64,000 nt of DNA, taken from Ruegeria arenilitoris. GTDB taxonomy: Bacteria > Pseudomonadota > Alphaproteobacteria > Rhodobacterales > Rhodobacteraceae. Positions 44,096 to 51,626 of the stretch are shown one piece after another. The stretch lies in the NCBI RefSeq assembly GCF_013032855.1, contig NZ_WQDA01000004.1, positions 248,001 through 312,000 on the forward strand, given 5' to 3'. Within the stretch, counting starts at the first letter, position 1. Each line of letters starts with the position of its first letter. The notes below the pieces were generated by a model, which searched no databases, was not told the DNA's origin, and saw nothing but the letters and a program-made list of their open reading frames with translations. A program made the position numbers and the translations under genes.

Positions 44096-44279
44096 CGCTT
44101 GCCCGTTAGGGCAGTGTTATTGGGACTGGGTGTTTTGACTTTGCCATGACCAGATGGCACCCTTCGGTCGTTTTCGGCCTGTTTTTTCGGGCATCATTGA
44201 TTGATCCGGTTTCGCAGCCTAAGAGGAAGCCCCGGATGCACCACATCCGCCGGCTAAGTTTTTGAAATTGAGAGGTCAC

Positions 44280-45173
44280 ATGTCACGCAAGGTCACCAAG
44301 GCGATTTTCCCTGTCGCAGGATTGGGCACCCGGTTTCTTCCGGCAACGAAATCCGTTCCGAAGGAAATCATGACGCTGGTTGACCGGCCTCTCGTTCAAT
44401 ATGCCATCGACGAAGCCCGCGCTGCGGGTATTACCGAGTTCATCTTCGTCACATCACGCGGGAAATCGGCGCTCGAAGACTATTTCGACCACAATCTCGT
44501 GCTGGAGCAGGAGCTGAAGGCCAAAGGCAAGGATGATTTGCTGGAGGTTCTCGAGAACACCAACATGGAAAGCGGTGCTATCGCCTATATCCGCCAACAC
44601 AAGGCATTGGGCTTGGGACACGCCGTCTGGTGCGCCCGCCGTCTGATCGGCGATGAACCCTTTGCGGTCATGCTGCCGGACGACGTTATTGCGGCCGACA
44701 AACCCTGCCTGCAGCAGATGGTCGAGGCTTATGAGGAAACCGGCGGCAACATGGTCGCCGCGATGGAGGTCGCACCCGAAAAAACCAGCTCGTACGGGAT
44801 ACTGGACGCCGCCGACAGTTCCGGCAAGGTGATCCGCGCCCGCGGCATGGTTGAAAAGCCCAAGGCCGACGAGGCACCGTCGAACATGGCAGTGATCGGT
44901 CGATACATTTTGGGGCCGTCGGTGCTGTACAACCTCAATCAGATGAAGAAAGGCAGCGGCGGAGAGATCCAGCTGACCGATGCCATCGCCGAAGACATCG
45001 GCAACGGTGTCCCCGTTTTCGGATACCGCTTTGATGGTCAACGCTTCGACTGCGGATCAAAAGCGGGCTTCCTACAGGCCACCGTGGCCTTTGCCCTGGC
45101 CCGGAATGACCTGCGCGACGACCTGAGCGCCTATCTGAATGATATTGTTGCCACAGGTCGGGCTGCCCAATAA
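44280..45173 (+). CDS. galU: UTP-glucose-1-phosphate uridylyltransferase
   Basis: 297 residues, nucleotidyltransferase with KAIFPVAGLGTRFLPATKS (about 7-25), ESGAIAYIRQHKALGLGHAV in the middle and VEKPKADEAPSN. It makes UDP-glucose from UTP and glucose-1-phosphate, the precursor of UDP-glucuronate (ugd, 50.3 kb) and of surface polysaccharides. The ATG at 44280 follows AGAGG by five bases. manC follows after 72 bases on the same strand, possibly co-transcribed. Confidence 0.95.
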   Translation: MSRKVTKAIFPVAGLGTRFLPATKSVPKEIMTLVDRPLVQYAIDEARAAGITEFIFVTSRGKSALEDYFDHNLVLEQELKAKGKDDLLEVLENTNMESGAIAYIRQHKALGLGHAVWCARRLIGDEPFAVMLPDDVIAADKPCLQQMVEAYEETGGNMVAAMEVAPEKTSSYGILDAADSSGKVIRARGMVEKPKADEAPSNMAVIGRYILGPSVLYNLNQMKKGSGGEIQLTDAIAEDIGNGVPVFGYRFDGQRFDCGSKAGFLQATVAFALARNDLRDDLSAYLNDIVATGRAAQ

Positions 45174-45245: not shown

Positions 45246-46682
45246 ATGACCACCATCTATCCTGTCATTCTGTGCGGCGGCTCCGGAACCCGGCTTTGGC
45301 CGCTGTCCCGAAAAAGCTATCCCAAACAGTTCGTGCCTCTAGTCGGAAACAGCAGCCTGTTGCAGGACTGTGCGGACAGGATGCGAGGGCCCAAGGACGC
45401 ACCGTACGCCAAGCCCCTGATACTCACCAATGAATCGTTCCGCTTCATCGTCACCGAGCAGCTTACCGCCATTGGTGTCGACCCGGGTCCGATCCTTATT
45501 GAGCCTGAGGGCCGCAACACGGCTCCGGCGGTCTTGGCGGCCGCGCTTTACCTGTCCAAGGTAGACCCGGATGCTTTGATGCTGGTGGCGCCGTCCGATC
45601 ACGTCGTTCCCGACAAATCCGCGTTCCACGCGGCGGTTTCGCAAGGTGTGACCGCCATCGAGAGGGACCGCCATCTGGTGACGTTCGGGATCACTCCGGA
45701 CCGGCCGGAAACCGGATATGGATATCTGAAGTTAAGCGCTGCGCCCGACGCGACAGGTGCTGCGGTCGCATTGGACCGTTTCGTTGAAAAGCCCGATCTG
45801 GATCGGGCCAAGGCCATGATTTCCGATGGCAGTTACCTGTGGAATTCCGGCATTTTCCTGTTTGCGGTGCGCGACATCATCGCTGCGTTCCAGGATCATG
45901 CACCCAATTTGTTGCCGCCGGTTCAGACTGCCGTCGAGGACGCGAAGGCCGATCTTGGCTTTCTGCGACTGGACGCATTGGCCTGGGGGAAAGTCGAAGA
46001 CATTTCGATCGACTACGCGGTCATGGAACGGGCCAAAAACCTGAGCGTTGTTCCCTATGCCGCCGGCTGGTCGGATGTCGGCAGCTGGTCGGCCGTCCAG
46101 GAGCTGAGCAGCCCCGACGAAAACGGCGTTGCGACCACCGGTGAGGTGACGACGATCGACTGTAACAACGTGTTGATCCGGTCCGAGTCAGCCTCCCAAG
46201 AAGTCGTGGCCATGGGGCTCGAGAACATGATCGCTGTGGCCATGCCGGATGCCGTTCTGGTGGCCAGCATGGACAAGGCACAGGATGTCAAACAGGCCGT
46301 GGCCGCCCTGAAGGCCAAAGGGGCACCGCAGGCCGAAGCTCTGCCGGTCGACCATCGCCCCTGGGGCTGGTTCGAGAGCCTGGTCGTGGGCGAACGATTC
46401 CAGGTCAAACGGATTCACGTAAACCCCGGCGCGGCCCTGAGCCTGCAGTCCCACCACCACAGGTCCGAGCATTGGATCGTCGTAGAAGGTACCGCCAAGG
46501 TCACGATCGATGACGAGGTTCGTCTGGTCAGCGAAAACCAGTCTGTCTACATCCCCCTTGGCGCGGTTCACCGGATGGAAAACCCCGGCAAGGTGCCTAT
46601 GGTCCTGATCGAGGTCCAGACCGGCGCCTACCTCGGAGAAGACGATATTATCCGGTACGAGGATGTCTACGCCCGCAACTGA
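45246..46682 (+). CDS. manC: Mannose-1-phosphate guanylyltransferase / mannose-6-phosphate isomerase
   Basis: 478 residues, the bifunctional AlgA/ManC/CpsB type. The N-terminal pyrophosphorylase has LCGGSGTRLWPLSRKSYPKQ (about 9-28) and FVEKPDLDRA; the C-terminal cupin has SLQSHHHRSEHWIVVEGTA. It produces GDP-mannose, which Gmd and Fcl (48-50 kb) turn into GDP-L-fucose. A rho-independent terminator follows 97 bases after the stop. Confidence 0.94.
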   Translation: MTTIYPVILCGGSGTRLWPLSRKSYPKQFVPLVGNSSLLQDCADRMRGPKDAPYAKPLILTNESFRFIVTEQLTAIGVDPGPILIEPEGRNTAPAVLAAALYLSKVDPDALMLVAPSDHVVPDKSAFHAAVSQGVTAIERDRHLVTFGITPDRPETGYGYLKLSAAPDATGAAVALDRFVEKPDLDRAKAMISDGSYLWNSGIFLFAVRDIIAAFQDHAPNLLPPVQTAVEDAKADLGFLRLDALAWGKVEDISIDYAVMERAKNLSVVPYAAGWSDVGSWSAVQELSSPDENGVATTGEVTTIDCNNVLIRSESASQEVVAMGLENMIAVAMPDAVLVASMDKAQDVKQAVAALKAKGAPQAEALPVDHRPWGWFESLVVGERFQVKRIHVNPGAALSLQSHHHRSEHWIVVEGTAKVTIDDEVRLVSENQSVYIPLGAVHRMENPGKVPMVLIEVQTGAYLGEDDIIRYEDVYARN

Positions 46683-46778: not shown

Positions 46779-46805
46779 AGCCGCCCCAAAAGGGCGGCTT
46801 TGTTT
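46779..46805 (+). terminator. Rho-independent terminator downstream of manC
   Basis: AGCCGCCC, loop CAAAA, GGGCGGCT, then TTTGTTT: an 8-base GC-rich stem with a T-run on the plus strand. It ends galU-manC transcription and isolates the next gene. The remaining bases to 46937 hold only that gene's leader. Confidence 0.88.
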
Positions 46806-46937
46806 CGTATTTGGAAATCCACAAGTAACCAAATCCTTTTTGTGTCGTTCGCACGTGAAAGCGGGGATTCATCCCATCCGCGGCAGGGTGGCGCGCAGCG
46901 AATTCCGTGAATCGATGGCCCAAGGAGGATCCCGCCC

Positions 46938-48014
46938 GTGTCCCAAAACACCCCCCGTTTGAATCTGCCGTTTCTGCAACCCTCACAGGCGCAAAAACAC
47001 GTTACCCACAACGAAGCGCTGCGGCAGCTGGACCTGATCGTGCAGCTGAGTGTTGTGGCTCTGGATGAAACCATTCCACCTGCGGCACCAGATCAAGGTG
47101 CCATCTACGGCTTGGGGGCCAGCCCGACAGGCGCCTGGGCGGGGAAGCCTGGGCAACTCGCGGCTTGGTTGGACAATGCTTGGGTCTTTGTCACTCCGGC
47201 AAACGGATGGCGCGTTTGGGACCAAGCCGGCGCCGCACTCAAGGTTTGGGACAACGGGGGATGGATCGATCCTCCGATCAATACAGCGAACCTTGCCGGG
47301 GTCGGGGTCGCAACCGGATACGATCCGACCAATCGCCTGTCGGTTCGGGGTCCCGCCACATTGCTGAGCCATGACGGGAGCGGTCACCAGTTGAAGATCA
47401 ACAAGGCGAGCGCGACTGACACGGCCTCCCTCCTGTTTCAGTCCAACTGGACCGGTCACGCCGAGATGGGCCTTGCGGGCAATACCGATTTTTCCATCAA
47501 GGTTTCACCGGACGGAGGCTCTTGGACCGAGGCGGTGCGCGTGGATGCCACATCGGGAACGATCAGCGGCGCGGCCGTTCAAGCCACCCCTGAAGATGTA
47601 ACACCCGGACGGCTGATGCGAGCCGACTACGGATATTGCCCCGGCAACCTCGTGGGTCCGGTGACGCAGTCTGGCGGGACCCCGACCGGCGCAGTGATCG
47701 AACGCGGCGCAAATGCGAACGGCGAATTCGTTCGTTTCGCGGATGGAACCCAGATCTGCACCCTCGCGGCGAGCGCGGTGGCCTGTACTGTCGGCAAGGG
47801 GCCACTGTTTGCAAGCGCCCAGAATACTTGGACTTTCCCCGCGCCTTTTGCTGTGGGCAGTACTCCAACCCTAAGCGGCAGCGGTAATGCCCTGGGACGG
47901 TTCATCAGCTTCGATTTGCCGACCGAAACGCAGGTAGCGTGGCAAGTTCTGTCGCCGGTATCCGATCCGGCGGCAATACCCCCGGCGGTCTCGGCCATCG
48001 GTCGCTGGTTCTGA
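46938..48014 (+). CDS. DUF2793 phage/GTA tail-spike-like protein
   Basis: 358 residues. The N-terminal 110 residues are a DUF2793 domain, a module of alphaproteobacterial phage and gene-transfer-agent spike or fibre proteins (RLNLPFLQPSQAQKHVTHN, then KPGQLAAWLDNAWVFVTP). A beta-rich middle resembles fibre repeats, and the C-terminus AIGRWF is the common end of fibre proteins. The start is GTG at 46938 with AAGGAGGA eight bases upstream, an almost perfect ribosome site. No other phage gene is near. It lies between two terminators among capsule-sugar genes. A GTA head-spike or surface-glycan-binding role is inference. Confidence 0.8.
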   Translation: MSQNTPRLNLPFLQPSQAQKHVTHNEALRQLDLIVQLSVVALDETIPPAAPDQGAIYGLGASPTGAWAGKPGQLAAWLDNAWVFVTPANGWRVWDQAGAALKVWDNGGWIDPPINTANLAGVGVATGYDPTNRLSVRGPATLLSHDGSGHQLKINKASATDTASLLFQSNWTGHAEMGLAGNTDFSIKVSPDGGSWTEAVRVDATSGTISGAAVQATPEDVTPGRLMRADYGYCPGNLVGPVTQSGGTPTGAVIERGANANGEFVRFADGTQICTLAASAVACTVGKGPLFASAQNTWTFPAPFAVGSTPTLSGSGNALGRFISFDLPTETQVAWQVLSPVSDPAAIPPAVSAIGRWF

Positions 48015-48023
48015 TCAGCGAAC

Positions 48024-48047
48024 GCACCCGGTCTTTGGGCCGGGTGC
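48024..48047. terminator. Bidirectional terminator between DUF2793 gene and fcl
   Basis: GCACCCGG and CCGGGTGC form a perfect 8-base stem with an 8-base loop in the 33-base gap between two convergent stops. It can serve both strands; T-runs are short (CTATTT on plus). Confidence 0.75.
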
Positions 48048-49025
48048 CTATTTGGCCCGCAGGTCGTCGGTCGATTGATCAAGGAACCAGGCATAGGTCT
48101 CGCGGATACCATCTTCGAGGCCTATGCGTGCCTTCCAGCCCATCTTGGCCAACCGGGAAACGCCCATCAGCTTGCGCATCGTACCATCTGGCTTGGTGGT
48201 GTCCTGCGTGATCCGGCCGGTATATCGGGTGATTTCGGCGATCAGTGCGGCCAGCTCGGCAATCGAAACGTCCTGCCCGCAGCCCACGTTTATGTGGCTC
48301 AGCATGGGTTGCGTATTGGCCTGATACACGTCCTGCGGCAAATCCATTACGAACAGCGATGCCTCGGCCATGTCATCGACATGCAGGAATTCACGCCGCG
48401 GCTTCCCAGTTCCCCAGATCACCACTTCGTCCAGCCCGTCGCGTTTGGCTTCGTGGAAGCGGCGGATCAGTGCTGGCAGAACATGGCTGTTCTCAGGGTG
48501 GAAATTGTCGCCCGGCCCATACAGGTTGGTCGGCATGACCGACCGGTAGTCGACCCCGTGCTGGCGGTTGTAGCTTTCGCACAGCTTGATCCCGGCGATC
48601 TTGGCAACCGCATATGGTTCGTTCGTCGGCTCCAAAACACCCGTCAGCAACGCGTCTTCGCGCATCGGCTGCGCTGCTTCACGCGGGTAGATGCAGGAAC
48701 TGCCCAGCTGCAGAAGACGCCGTACACCGGCCGCAAAAGCCTGATGGATCACGTTGCACTCGATCATCAGATTTTCGTAAATGAAATCTGCAGGATACGT
48801 GTTGTTGGCGTGAATCCCACCGACCTTTGCAGCAGCCAGGATCACGACGTCTGGGCGCTCGGCCTGCATGAAGGCACGGACGGCCGCCTGATCGGTCAGA
48901 TCCAATTCGGAATGGGTTCGGGTCACCAGTTCAAGCGGCTCGCCATCGGCCTGGCGCGCCTTGAGCTGACGCAGGATTGCTCCACCTACCATGCCACGAT
49001 GTCCGGCGATGTAGATCTTGCGCAT
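48048..49025 (-). CDS. fcl: GDP-L-fucose synthase
   Basis: 325 residues, extended short-chain dehydrogenase. NADP-binding [10 protein letters not shown] lies at 8-17, and family residues follow in [23 protein letters not shown] and YAVAKIAG (catalytic Tyr and Lys). The epimerase-reductase converts GDP-4-keto-6-deoxymannose to GDP-L-fucose. It follows gmd by ten bases on the same strand, so the two are one operon. Its 3' end faces the DUF2793 gene across a terminator. Confidence 0.95.
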
Positions 49026-49035
49026 TTCTGCCTCC

Positions 49036-50160
49036 TCAGCCGTTTTCCAGGCTGACCGGCAATTCGAACCCGTGCTCTTTCAACAAGGCGTGGCGCTTGG
49101 CGGTTTTGAGGTCTTCCAGAACCATCTCTGCGCACATTTCCTGCACGGTCAGCTCCGGCTCCCATCCCAATTTGGCCTTGGCGTTCGACGGGTCACCCAG
49201 CAGAGTGTCCACCTCGGCTGGTCGGAAATACTGCGGGTCGATCCGTATGATCACGTCACCGGGTTTCAGCGCTGGGGCGTTGTCGCCGTCGATCGCCGTC
49301 ACCGTTGCAACCTCGTCCACACCGCTGCCCGAAAACTCCAAGGTGAGCCCAAGCTCGGCCGCCGACCATTCGATGAATTGCCGCACGGAATACTGCTTGC
49401 CGGTGGCAATAACGAAATCCTCGGGCTTGTCCTGCTGCAGCATCATCCACTGCATCCGCACGTAGTCCTTGGCATGGCCCCAATCGCGCAGACTGTCGAT
49501 ATTCCCCATGTAAAGGCACTTCTCCAAGCCCTGGGCGATGTTGGCCAGACCACGCGTGATCTTGCGGGTGACAAAGGTTTCGCCGCGGCGCGGGCTTTCA
49601 TGATTGAACAGGATTCCGTTGCAGGCATACATCCCGTACGCCTCGCGATAATTGACCGTGATCCAATACGAATACAGTTTGGCCACCGCGTAGGGCGAGC
49701 GGGGATAGAACGGGGTCGTTTCGCGCTGCGGAGTTTCCTGAACCAGCCCGTAGAGTTCCGACGTGGACGCCTGATAGAACCGGGTCTTGTTCTCAAGTCC
49801 CAGGAACCGGATCGCCTCAAGCAGGCGCAGGGTGCCGATGGCATCGACATCCGCGGTATATTCCGGCGACTCGAAGCTGACGGCCACGTGAGATTGGGCG
49901 CCCAGGTTGTAGACTTCGTCGGGCTGAACCTCCTGAATGATGCGGGTCAGGTTCGAGGTATCGCTCAGATCGCCGTAGTGCAGGCGCAGCTTCGGATCAG
50001 GCTCGTGGGGGTCCTGATAGATGTGGTCGATCCGCTGGGTGTTGAACGAGGATGCCCGACGCTTGATCCCGTGAACTTCATAGCCCTTTGCCAACAGAAA
50101 TTCGGCCAGGTAAGACCCGTCCTGTCCTGTAACTCCAGTGATCAGCGCTTTTTTGGTCAT
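49036..50160 (-). CDS. gmd: GDP-mannose 4,6-dehydratase
   Basis: 374 residues with [15 protein letters not shown] (about 9-23), [22 protein letters not shown] and [12 protein letters not shown] (Tyr/Lys pair). It makes GDP-4-keto-6-deoxy-D-mannose from the GDP-mannose supplied by ManC. First gene of gmd-fcl; the 161 bases to the divergent ugd gene should carry both promoters. Confidence 0.96.
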
Positions 50161-50321: not shown

Positions 50322-51626
50322 ATGCGTATTGCGATGATCGGCACGGGATATGTGGGTCTGGTGTCGGGTGTGTGCTTCTCGGATTTCGGTCATGACGTCA
50401 TTTGCGTCGACAAGGCCGAAGCTAAGATCCAGATGCTGCAGGACGGAAAAGTTCCAATCTACGAACCGGGACTGGATGTTCTGATGGCCAAGAACGTGGC
50501 CGCCGGCCGGCTGAGCTTTACCACCGATCTGGCGAATGCAGTGAAAGGCGCGGATGCCGTCTTTATCGCTGTCGGGACACCAACCCGCCGCGGCGACGGC
50601 CATGCGGATCTGACCTATGTGATGGCAGCGGCCGAGGAAATCGCCCATGCGATGGATGGCTACACCGTGGTGGTGACCAAATCCACGGTTCCGGTCGGGA
50701 CCAACCGCAAGGTTCAGGAAGTTGTCGCGGCGGCAAACCCCAAGGCAGACTTTGATGTCGCCTCGAACCCGGAATTCCTGCGCGAAGGCGCTGCGATCGA
50801 CGATTTCATGCGTCCTGACCGCGTCGTTGTAGGGGTCGAGAACGACCGCGCCGCCGAGGTGATGGCCGAAATCTACCGCCCACTTTACCTGCGCGATTTT
50901 CCGATCCTGACGACGGATCTGGAAAGCGCCGAAATGATCAAATACGCGGCAAACGCCTTTCTCGCCACCAAGATCACATTCATCAACGAAATCGCTGGCC
51001 TGTGCGAGCGGGTCGGTGGCGACGTCAAGGAAGTGGCGCGCGGCATCGGCTTGGATGGGCGAATCGGAAACAAGTTCCTGCATGCCGGCCCCGGCTACGG
51101 CGGATCATGCTTTCCCAAGGACACCGCGGCGCTTGCGCGGATCGGACAGGAACATGCCTTTCCAATGCAGATCACCGAAACCGTCATGCGCGTGAATGAC
51201 GAGGTCAAAAAACGCATGATCGAAAAGATCCGCGAAGCTTGCGACGACAGTTTCAACGGCAAGACCGTGGCGGTTTTGGGAGTGACGTTCAAACCCAACA
51301 CCGACGACATGCGTGACGCTCCATCACTGACCATCGTGCCCGCCCTGATCGGTGGCGGCGCCAAAGTTCGCGTGGTCGACCCTCAGGGCCGATCCGAGGG
51401 TGAGGCTCTGCTGCCGGGTGTAGAGTGGGTCGAAGACCCGTATGCCGCTGCCAAGGACGCGGACGCAGTGGTGCTGTTGACCGAATGGAACGAGTTCCGC
51501 GCGCTGAACCTGACGCAGATGGCCGCTGAGATGAAATCTCCACGCATGGTCGACCTGCGGAACATCTATTCACGCGACAAGGTCAAGAAATCCGGTTTTG
51601 AAACCTATGTCGGGGTTGGGCGCTAG
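50322..51626 (+). CDS. ugd: UDP-glucose 6-dehydrogenase
   Basis: 434 residues. The NAD site is GTGYVGLVSG (about 7-16), the substrate-binding region has STVPVGTNRKV, and the catalytic Cys is in GPGYGGSCFPKD near residue 262. The C-terminal domain has GVTFKPNTDDMRDAPS. It oxidises UDP-glucose (from GalU) to UDP-glucuronate for acidic surface polysaccharide. AAGGGA precedes the ATG. A hairpin overlapping its stop separates it from the convergent dioxygenase gene. Confidence 0.95.
   Translation: MRIAMIGTGYVGLVSGVCFSDFGHDVICVDKAEAKIQMLQDGKVPIYEPGLDVLMAKNVAAGRLSFTTDLANAVKGADAVFIAVGTPTRRGDGHADLTYVMAAAEEIAHAMDGYTVVVTKSTVPVGTNRKVQEVVAAANPKADFDVASNPEFLREGAAIDDFMRPDRVVVGVENDRAAEVMAEIYRPLYLRDFPILTTDLESAEMIKYAANAFLATKITFINEIAGLCERVGGDVKEVARGIGLDGRIGNKFLHAGPGYGGSCFPKDTAALARIGQEHAFPMQITETVMRVNDEVKKRMIEKIREACDDSFNGKTVAVLGVTFKPNTDDMRDAPSLTIVPALIGGGAKVRVVDPQGRSEGEALLPGVEWVEDPYAAAKDADAVVLLTEWNEFRALNLTQMAAEMKSPRMVDLRNIYSRDKVKKSGFETYVGVGR

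Follow-up and report, generated by a model that had tools for sequence, protein, structure and literature searches.

A probable tail-fibre gene of the RcGTA type beside surface-polysaccharide genes in Ruegeria arenilitoris and across related genera

The fibre locus

In the window, that is, the whole 64,000-nucleotide stretch of Ruegeria arenilitoris DNA that was analysed, a frame that begins with GTG (46938..48014, + strand) encodes a GTA tail-fibre protein of 358 aa with a DUF2793 domain, an assignment that draws on the frame itself, Pfam, PHROG, an AlphaFold model with its fold matches, and identity to an R. capsulatus protein. On the 5' side lie galU (44262..45173, +; TIGR01099) and manC for GDP-mannose (45246..46682, +; TIGR01479 GMP_PMI), and on the 3' side lie fcl for GDP-L-fucose synthase (48048..49025, -; NF047922), gmd for GDP-mannose 4,6-dehydratase (49036..50160, -; TIGR01472) and a nucleotide-sugar dehydrogenase gene, probably ugd (50322..51626, +; TIGR03026 subfamily), the substrate of which would be UDP-glucose. 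These neighbours were named by NCBIfam matches over curated cut-offs in a scan of the ten flanking proteins between 38.5 and 53.5 kb, and they bear out the first-pass annotation in its description of a lone GTA- or phage-type receptor-binding gene amid genes for polysaccharide precursors. Its observation that other phage genes are absent also holds, in that none of the ten flanking proteins matched a phage family of NCBIfam at E 1e-10 or better. No prophage was found around the fibre gene, and the genome's sole GTA_TIM match lies on another contig. The same annotation called the layout moron-like, which is a poor fit because the ten flanking proteins scanned gave no phage family and because the R. 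capsulatus orthologue of the fibre gene also lies outside the GTA cluster.

The gene appears to carry signals of its own. The Shine-Dalgarno-like motif AAGGAGG (46922..46928, +), read from the sequence, stands 9 nt 5' of the GTG, as expected from the earlier claim of a near-perfect ribosome site. Further upstream is a block (46815..46932, +), a putative promoter region for the fibre gene alone, that corresponds to about 120 bases conserved in Ruegeria-type fibre loci by an alignment of 15 upstream regions. An nhmmer search with a profile of the block, built with the window and without the same-genus locus L118, found it again at the fibre gene in both. The window's copy of the block holds no TTAAC half-site, a motif that bears on possible control by CtrA and GafA, and the block had no match among the best 60 listed in the GTA regions of the same genome (L084) or of R. 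capsulatus (L085).

Hairpins lie on either side of the gene. The one 3' of manC (46779..46799, +), previously called a rho-independent terminator, has a T-rich tail and a fold z of -4.3; its support comes from the fold, because the terminator scan counted 6 terminator-like sites in total against a mean of 6.0 in shuffled sequence, with no excess. A second hairpin (48024..48047), between the convergent fibre and fcl genes, folds on both strands (z -2.3 on + and -3.8 on -) as had been proposed, but a proper T-run is absent behind the hairpin on both strands; judged from the sequence, a role as bidirectional terminator is plausible. No Rfam family reached its gathering threshold within 44.0-50.5 kb.

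A probable tail fibre rather than a head spike

The DUF2793 assignment in the first-pass annotation is secure, since residues 24-109 match PF10983 with 99 bits against a cut-off of 27 (E 1.4e-28), and the fibre gene is the single DUF2793 match in a genome of 3.82 Mb with 99.5% completeness. Residues 233-358 match PHROG 2712, a family of phage tail fibres, the family profile matches an F2-pyocin side fibre at its residues 203-357 (E 2.4e-16), and residues 5-127 align with chain S of the roseophage R4C structure 8gtc (E 1.1e-12), reported as distal tail plus baseplate (PMC10276861), although that chain is the product of a phage gene, has a shorter length of 230 aa and carries the name 'Ribonuclease III' in its record. 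An AlphaFold model built from 30 sequences (mean pLDDT 80, pTM 0.38, foot pLDDT 88-97) places a helix at residues 15-35, a knob at about 41-110 and a lectin-like foot at about 251-358. In this predicted model the foot resembles R1-pyocin 6cxb (Z 10.4, rmsd 2.5 A over 98) and gp53 of phage AP22, 4mtm (Z 9.4, rmsd 2.7 A over 90). Weaker are its resemblance to snail H-type lectins (Z about 7) and that of residues 11-114 to a baseplate chain of JBD30 (Z 7.6, 4.9 A over 97), and fold matches with Z below 8 may reflect a common arrangement only. The likeness to the pyocin and AP22 tail fibres concerns the fold of the foot; those fibres, unlike the protein studied here, belong to a bacteriocin or a phage, and DUF2793 is not named in the matches.

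The nearest characterized system is that of R. capsulatus. The DUF2793 protein of RcGTA is reported to be the tail fibre Rcc00171 (PMC8265664, PMC10883770), with 371 residues arranged as rod, knob and foot (PMC7296036). In R. capsulatus SP108 a single DUF2793 gene was found (locus L035). Its 371-aa product is taken for that of the rcc00171 orthologue on the grounds of species, length and single occurrence rather than by locus tag, and residues 1-309 of the Ruegeria protein share 51% identity with it over 309 aa. The two therefore agree in the N-terminal DUF2793 domain, in the rod-knob-foot arrangement, in identity over 309 of 358 residues and in being the sole DUF2793 gene, and both are encoded apart from the head-tail cluster with a glycan gene close by, which in R. 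capsulatus is rmlA at 924 bp. They differ in their neighbours, GDP-mannose and GDP-fucose genes here as against dTDP-rhamnose genes in R. capsulatus, and in the last third of the foot, which has diverged.

The first-pass annotation had instead read the protein as a GTA head spike, a reading that can appeal to the similar layout of the RcGTA head spikes GhsA and GhsB (rcc01079-rcc01080), which are reported to be receptor-binding, to be encoded outside the cluster and to adjoin capsule genes with which they are co-regulated (PMC10218006). GhsA and GhsB are other proteins, however, described as sitting on the capsid and not on the baseplate (PMC7296036), and the head-spike fibre and the tail fibre are reported to have no homology detectable by BLASTp (PMC10218006). 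RcGTA head-spike chains are absent among the PDB sequence matches and fold rows listed, an absence that is not decisive. What speaks for a tail fibre rather than a head spike is the DUF2793 domain, the PHROG match, the identity to the R. capsulatus protein, the R4C match and a foot that, in the structure prediction, folds like R-pyocin and AP22 fibres, so the head-spike reading is highly improbable, and the earlier proviso that the protein might show no spike-like fold is answered by the predicted foot. The gene very probably encodes an RcGTA-type tail fibre, the orthologue of Rcc00171. By itself such a gene is ordinary; the point of interest is the pattern across genera described below.

A side observation concerns nomenclature. 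Several roseophage fibres of the DUF2793 type (8gtc chain S; H13, H21, H23 and others) bear the name 'ribonuclease III' in PDB or GenBank, which is apparently a spreading misannotation.

A probable fibre for the GTA of the same genome

An RcGTA-type head-tail cluster with its megatron lies on contig C2, and the fibre gene lies outside it, on C4. The cluster includes genes for terminase, portal, capsid, head-tail connector, head-completion protein, GTA-gp10 tail tube and hub, together with an NlpC/P60 protein just below the cut-off and a megatron of 1321 aa that carries GTA_TIM and Rcc01698_C; the scan covered the cluster apart from its tape measure and some of the small genes. The same cluster holds, between its terminase and portal genes, a plus-strand ORF of 280 aa (L084:15457-16299) that looks by eye like a short-chain dehydrogenase.

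Among 199 genomes of the family, 151 hold both DUF2793 and GTA_TIM, 5 DUF2793 alone, 20 GTA_TIM alone and 23 neither, a co-occurrence with p 7e-14 in a test that ignores kinship. In some other genomes (for example on G010:C2, G031:C1, G104:C2 and G134:C1) a short DUF2793 gene, with a frame of about 260-280 aa, is found no more than about 2 kb from the megatron, so that fibre genes have two kinds of location. Published work on RcGTA suggests that its tail fibres bind cell-surface receptors and reports them essential for transfer (PMC7296036), describes better binding of a tagged tail fibre to encapsulated cells (PMC10218006), and reports that rcc00171 is triggered by CtrA-P with GafA (PMC9638019). 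In the mechanism that we propose, GTA induction would lead to fibre production from the gene's own promoter at its separate locus, the rod and DUF2793 knob of the N-terminal part would attach to the baseplate megatron, and the C-terminal lectin-like foot would bind the recipient's surface glycan; assembly into particles, co-regulation with the GTA and a glycan ligand are thus what we infer for this protein.

It could be argued that the protein has a role unconnected with GTAs, either binding glycans for the host or belonging to some other particle. Three genomes (G041, G129 and G187; loci L171, L188 and L121) keep an orphan fibre gene beside rml or ugd genes with GTA_TIM, gp10 and hub undetected, a fourth (G066; locus L172) has the same arrangement with gp10 found and GTA_TIM and hub not, and phage proteins share either the N-terminal or the C-terminal part of the fibre. 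Against this stand the strong co-occurrence of DUF2793 with GTA_TIM and the reported need for the tail fibre in RcGTA transfer (PMC7296036), and we consider a function outside GTAs improbable. The best explanation of the whole, and a likely one, is a tail fibre of the genome's own RcGTA-type GTA, encoded at its own locus and equipped with a glycan-binding foot.

Conservation and divergence

The closest named relatives of the fibre gene are in Ruegeria loci, where the order galU-manC-fibre-fcl-gmd is often kept. Departures from it include six loci in which manC was not found at this place (L004, L007, L009, L010, L021 and L022), two in which fcl and gmd were not found there (L012 and L021), and L013, where galU and manC are more distant by some kilobases. 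A full-length frame is present in the window and in 12 of the 14 Ruegeria-type loci; in L021 and L022 (R. atlantica HKCCD9103 and R. meonggei CECT 8411) the frame is broken, possibly through sequencing error. Such conservation, which extends across genera, disposes of the earlier concern that the gene might be a random relic in this genome only.

Among 13 Ruegeria-type sequences the mean amino-acid identity of the fibre is 0.67 (0.71 in the N-terminal and 0.62 in the C-terminal part), and the corresponding values for its neighbours are 0.89 for galU, 0.82 for manC (9 sequences), 0.86 for fcl and 0.90 for gmd (12 sequences each). In all five genes synonymous sites have reached saturation or are close to it, and an identity of 0.67 on that background indicates that the fibre gene is constrained but fast-evolving, fastest in the foot. 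Across genera the first 210 residues are best kept and the C-termini form several types.

Orphan fibre genes lie near polysaccharide genes

The synteny of fibre and polysaccharide genes was surveyed by searching the fibre against the 199 genomes and keeping each genome's best match if its E was no higher than about 1e-45 (1.1e-45 for the weakest one retained) and if no listed GTA_TIM match lay close by; G098 was excluded on that ground and G004 entered with its second match. The outcome was 80 loci in addition to the window, with one per genus except for G000 and G039, which share a genus, and some loci were shortened by contig ends. For controls, random stretches were taken from the same contigs at a distance of 20 kb or more from the fibre gene (78 drawn, 60 obtained), none of them anchored on other island genes. 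Glycan ORFs were called alike in both sets by phmmer at E 1e-8 with 34 E. coli K-12 proteins of colanic-acid, O-antigen and LPS-core synthesis as queries, and loci were counted if both flanks reached at least 5 kb, with L197 left out because it holds hub and megatron genes.

Of the 64 fibre loci, 42 have a glycan ORF no more than 5 kb away, compared with 6 of 60 controls when distance is taken from the control's central gene and 6.5 of 60 when the controls are averaged over all suitable anchor genes; the remaining 22 fibre loci have no glycan hit within that distance. For the 43 genomes in which fibre locus and control could be paired, both had such an ORF in 4, the fibre locus only in 26, the control only in 2 and neither in 11 (exact p 3e-6). 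In 29 of 80 loci a gene directly next to the fibre gene is of glycan type. Pfam families of the 154 flanking proteins give the same picture, with Glycos_transf_2 in at least 9, NTP_transferase in 10, UDPG_MGDP_dh in 7, Epimerase in 12, Polysacc_synt_2 in 8 and Wzz in at least 5, as against 5 Glycos_transf_2 and no more than one of each other family among 115 control proteins, the counts being taken from the 25 commonest families listed per half and from a protein list in which the fibre ORF was assigned to the wrong strand in 14 of 80 loci. For Poly_export (Wza), 6 of the 19 orphan-fibre genomes (41 searched) have a match no more than 12 kb from the fibre where 0.32 were expected (p 5e-7), a distance picked after the list was seen, and the window's genome is not among the six. 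The nearest glycan hit within 5 kb, among 75 loci that could be classed, belongs to manC/gmd/fcl in 13, rml in 11, wza/wzc in 9, ugd in 8, glycosyltransferase or other in 8 and glf in 3, with none in 23 (L197 included).

The suspicion in the first-pass annotation that the placing beside sugar genes is no coincidence thus gains support from the locus counts, the paired genomes and Wza, and the enrichment is general in a set with nearly one genome per genus. Orphan fibre genes lie near surface-polysaccharide genes, and very probably this is a real pattern. In the parts of the open-licence literature that were searched, no statement was found that places tail-fibre genes in polysaccharide loci; GTA virion genes are described as spread over several loci, an arrangement said to let some evolve faster (PMC13420450).

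In a separate observation, the flanks of three fibre loci encode replication initiator protein A (PF10134; 3 of 77 flanking proteins, alignment A1), which indicates that some fibre copies are plasmid-borne.

Does the foot match the neighbouring sugar genes?

In Ruegeria the C-terminal identity of the fibre is 0.630 within the four manC-less loci tested and 0.623 between groups, which shows no correspondence between fibre allele and the presence of manC. Across genera the mutual information between C-terminal type and neighbour class has p 0.002 for 60 loci and 0.0004 for the 43 glycan-flanked loci, counting C-types of three or more members. Once the fibre tree is taken into account, 2 and 3 supported independent pairs remain, and these are too few for the association to be tested on the tree. 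Agreement of labels over all C-terminal BLAST links does not exceed chance, at 126 of 648 where 113 are expected, and 321 of 2000 shuffles were as high.

Why the fibre gene lies where it does

The least certain step is the reason for the placing. We tentatively favour, at somewhat below an even chance, a benefit of linking a receptor-binding gene to the genes that shape the receptor, because the controls come from the same contigs and because the placing contrasts with that of tspA. The RcGTA tailspike TspA (rcc02623) is a different protein from the fibre but resembles it as the product of another GTA gene outside the cluster and is reported to act on extracellular polysaccharide, yet its gene is described as staying throughout in a conserved place beside lysS (PMC13420450). 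Simple linkage is weakened by the three genomes with an orphan fibre and no detected GTA genes (G041, G129 and G187), by the absence of allele matching in Ruegeria and by the loci that lack a glycan neighbour.

It is quite possible, though again short of even, that the protein is a GTA tail fibre and its linkage to glycan genes has no function, the genes having come together in shared variable islands or through one landing followed by gene turnover. The fibre tree groups the wza/wzc loci together (1 of 500 shuffles as low) and the ugd loci less so (17 of 500), so part of the placing pattern reflects shared descent, and the replication-initiator neighbours in three loci also fit with a functionless association. 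Because only 5 of 78 branches of the tree are starred as supported, no number of independent origins is given, and one old origin would be compatible with the tree. Set against these points are the drawing of controls from the same contigs, the reported constancy of tspA beside lysS (PMC13420450), and the fact that the best fibre tree requires at least 43 changes of neighbour class, which is close to the mean of the shuffles.

Further still goes the unlikely proposal that Rhodobacteraceae hold a linked recognition cassette in which adjoining genes for the fibre and for its receptor glycan are passed on or swapped as a unit, perhaps carried in the DNA of a single GTA particle. If so, the DNA of dying producers would go preferentially to cells with a matching coat, a greenbeard-like way of keeping lethal gene donation among kin. 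GTA donation kills the donor cell, and its persistence despite cheaters is an open question, for which a published model of GTA upkeep relies on biofilm structure (PMC10883770); a recurrent link between fibre and glycan genes would offer a genetic mechanism that is directly testable, and the neighbourhood of the fibre gene would let the host range of a GTA be guessed.

Another feature of the flanking proteins is the presence of RTX calcium-binding repeats (PF00353), found in 12 of the 154 proteins beside the fibre (loci L118-L197) and in no more than one of the 115 control proteins; repression of RcGTA by an RTX-like protein has been reported (PMC13420450).
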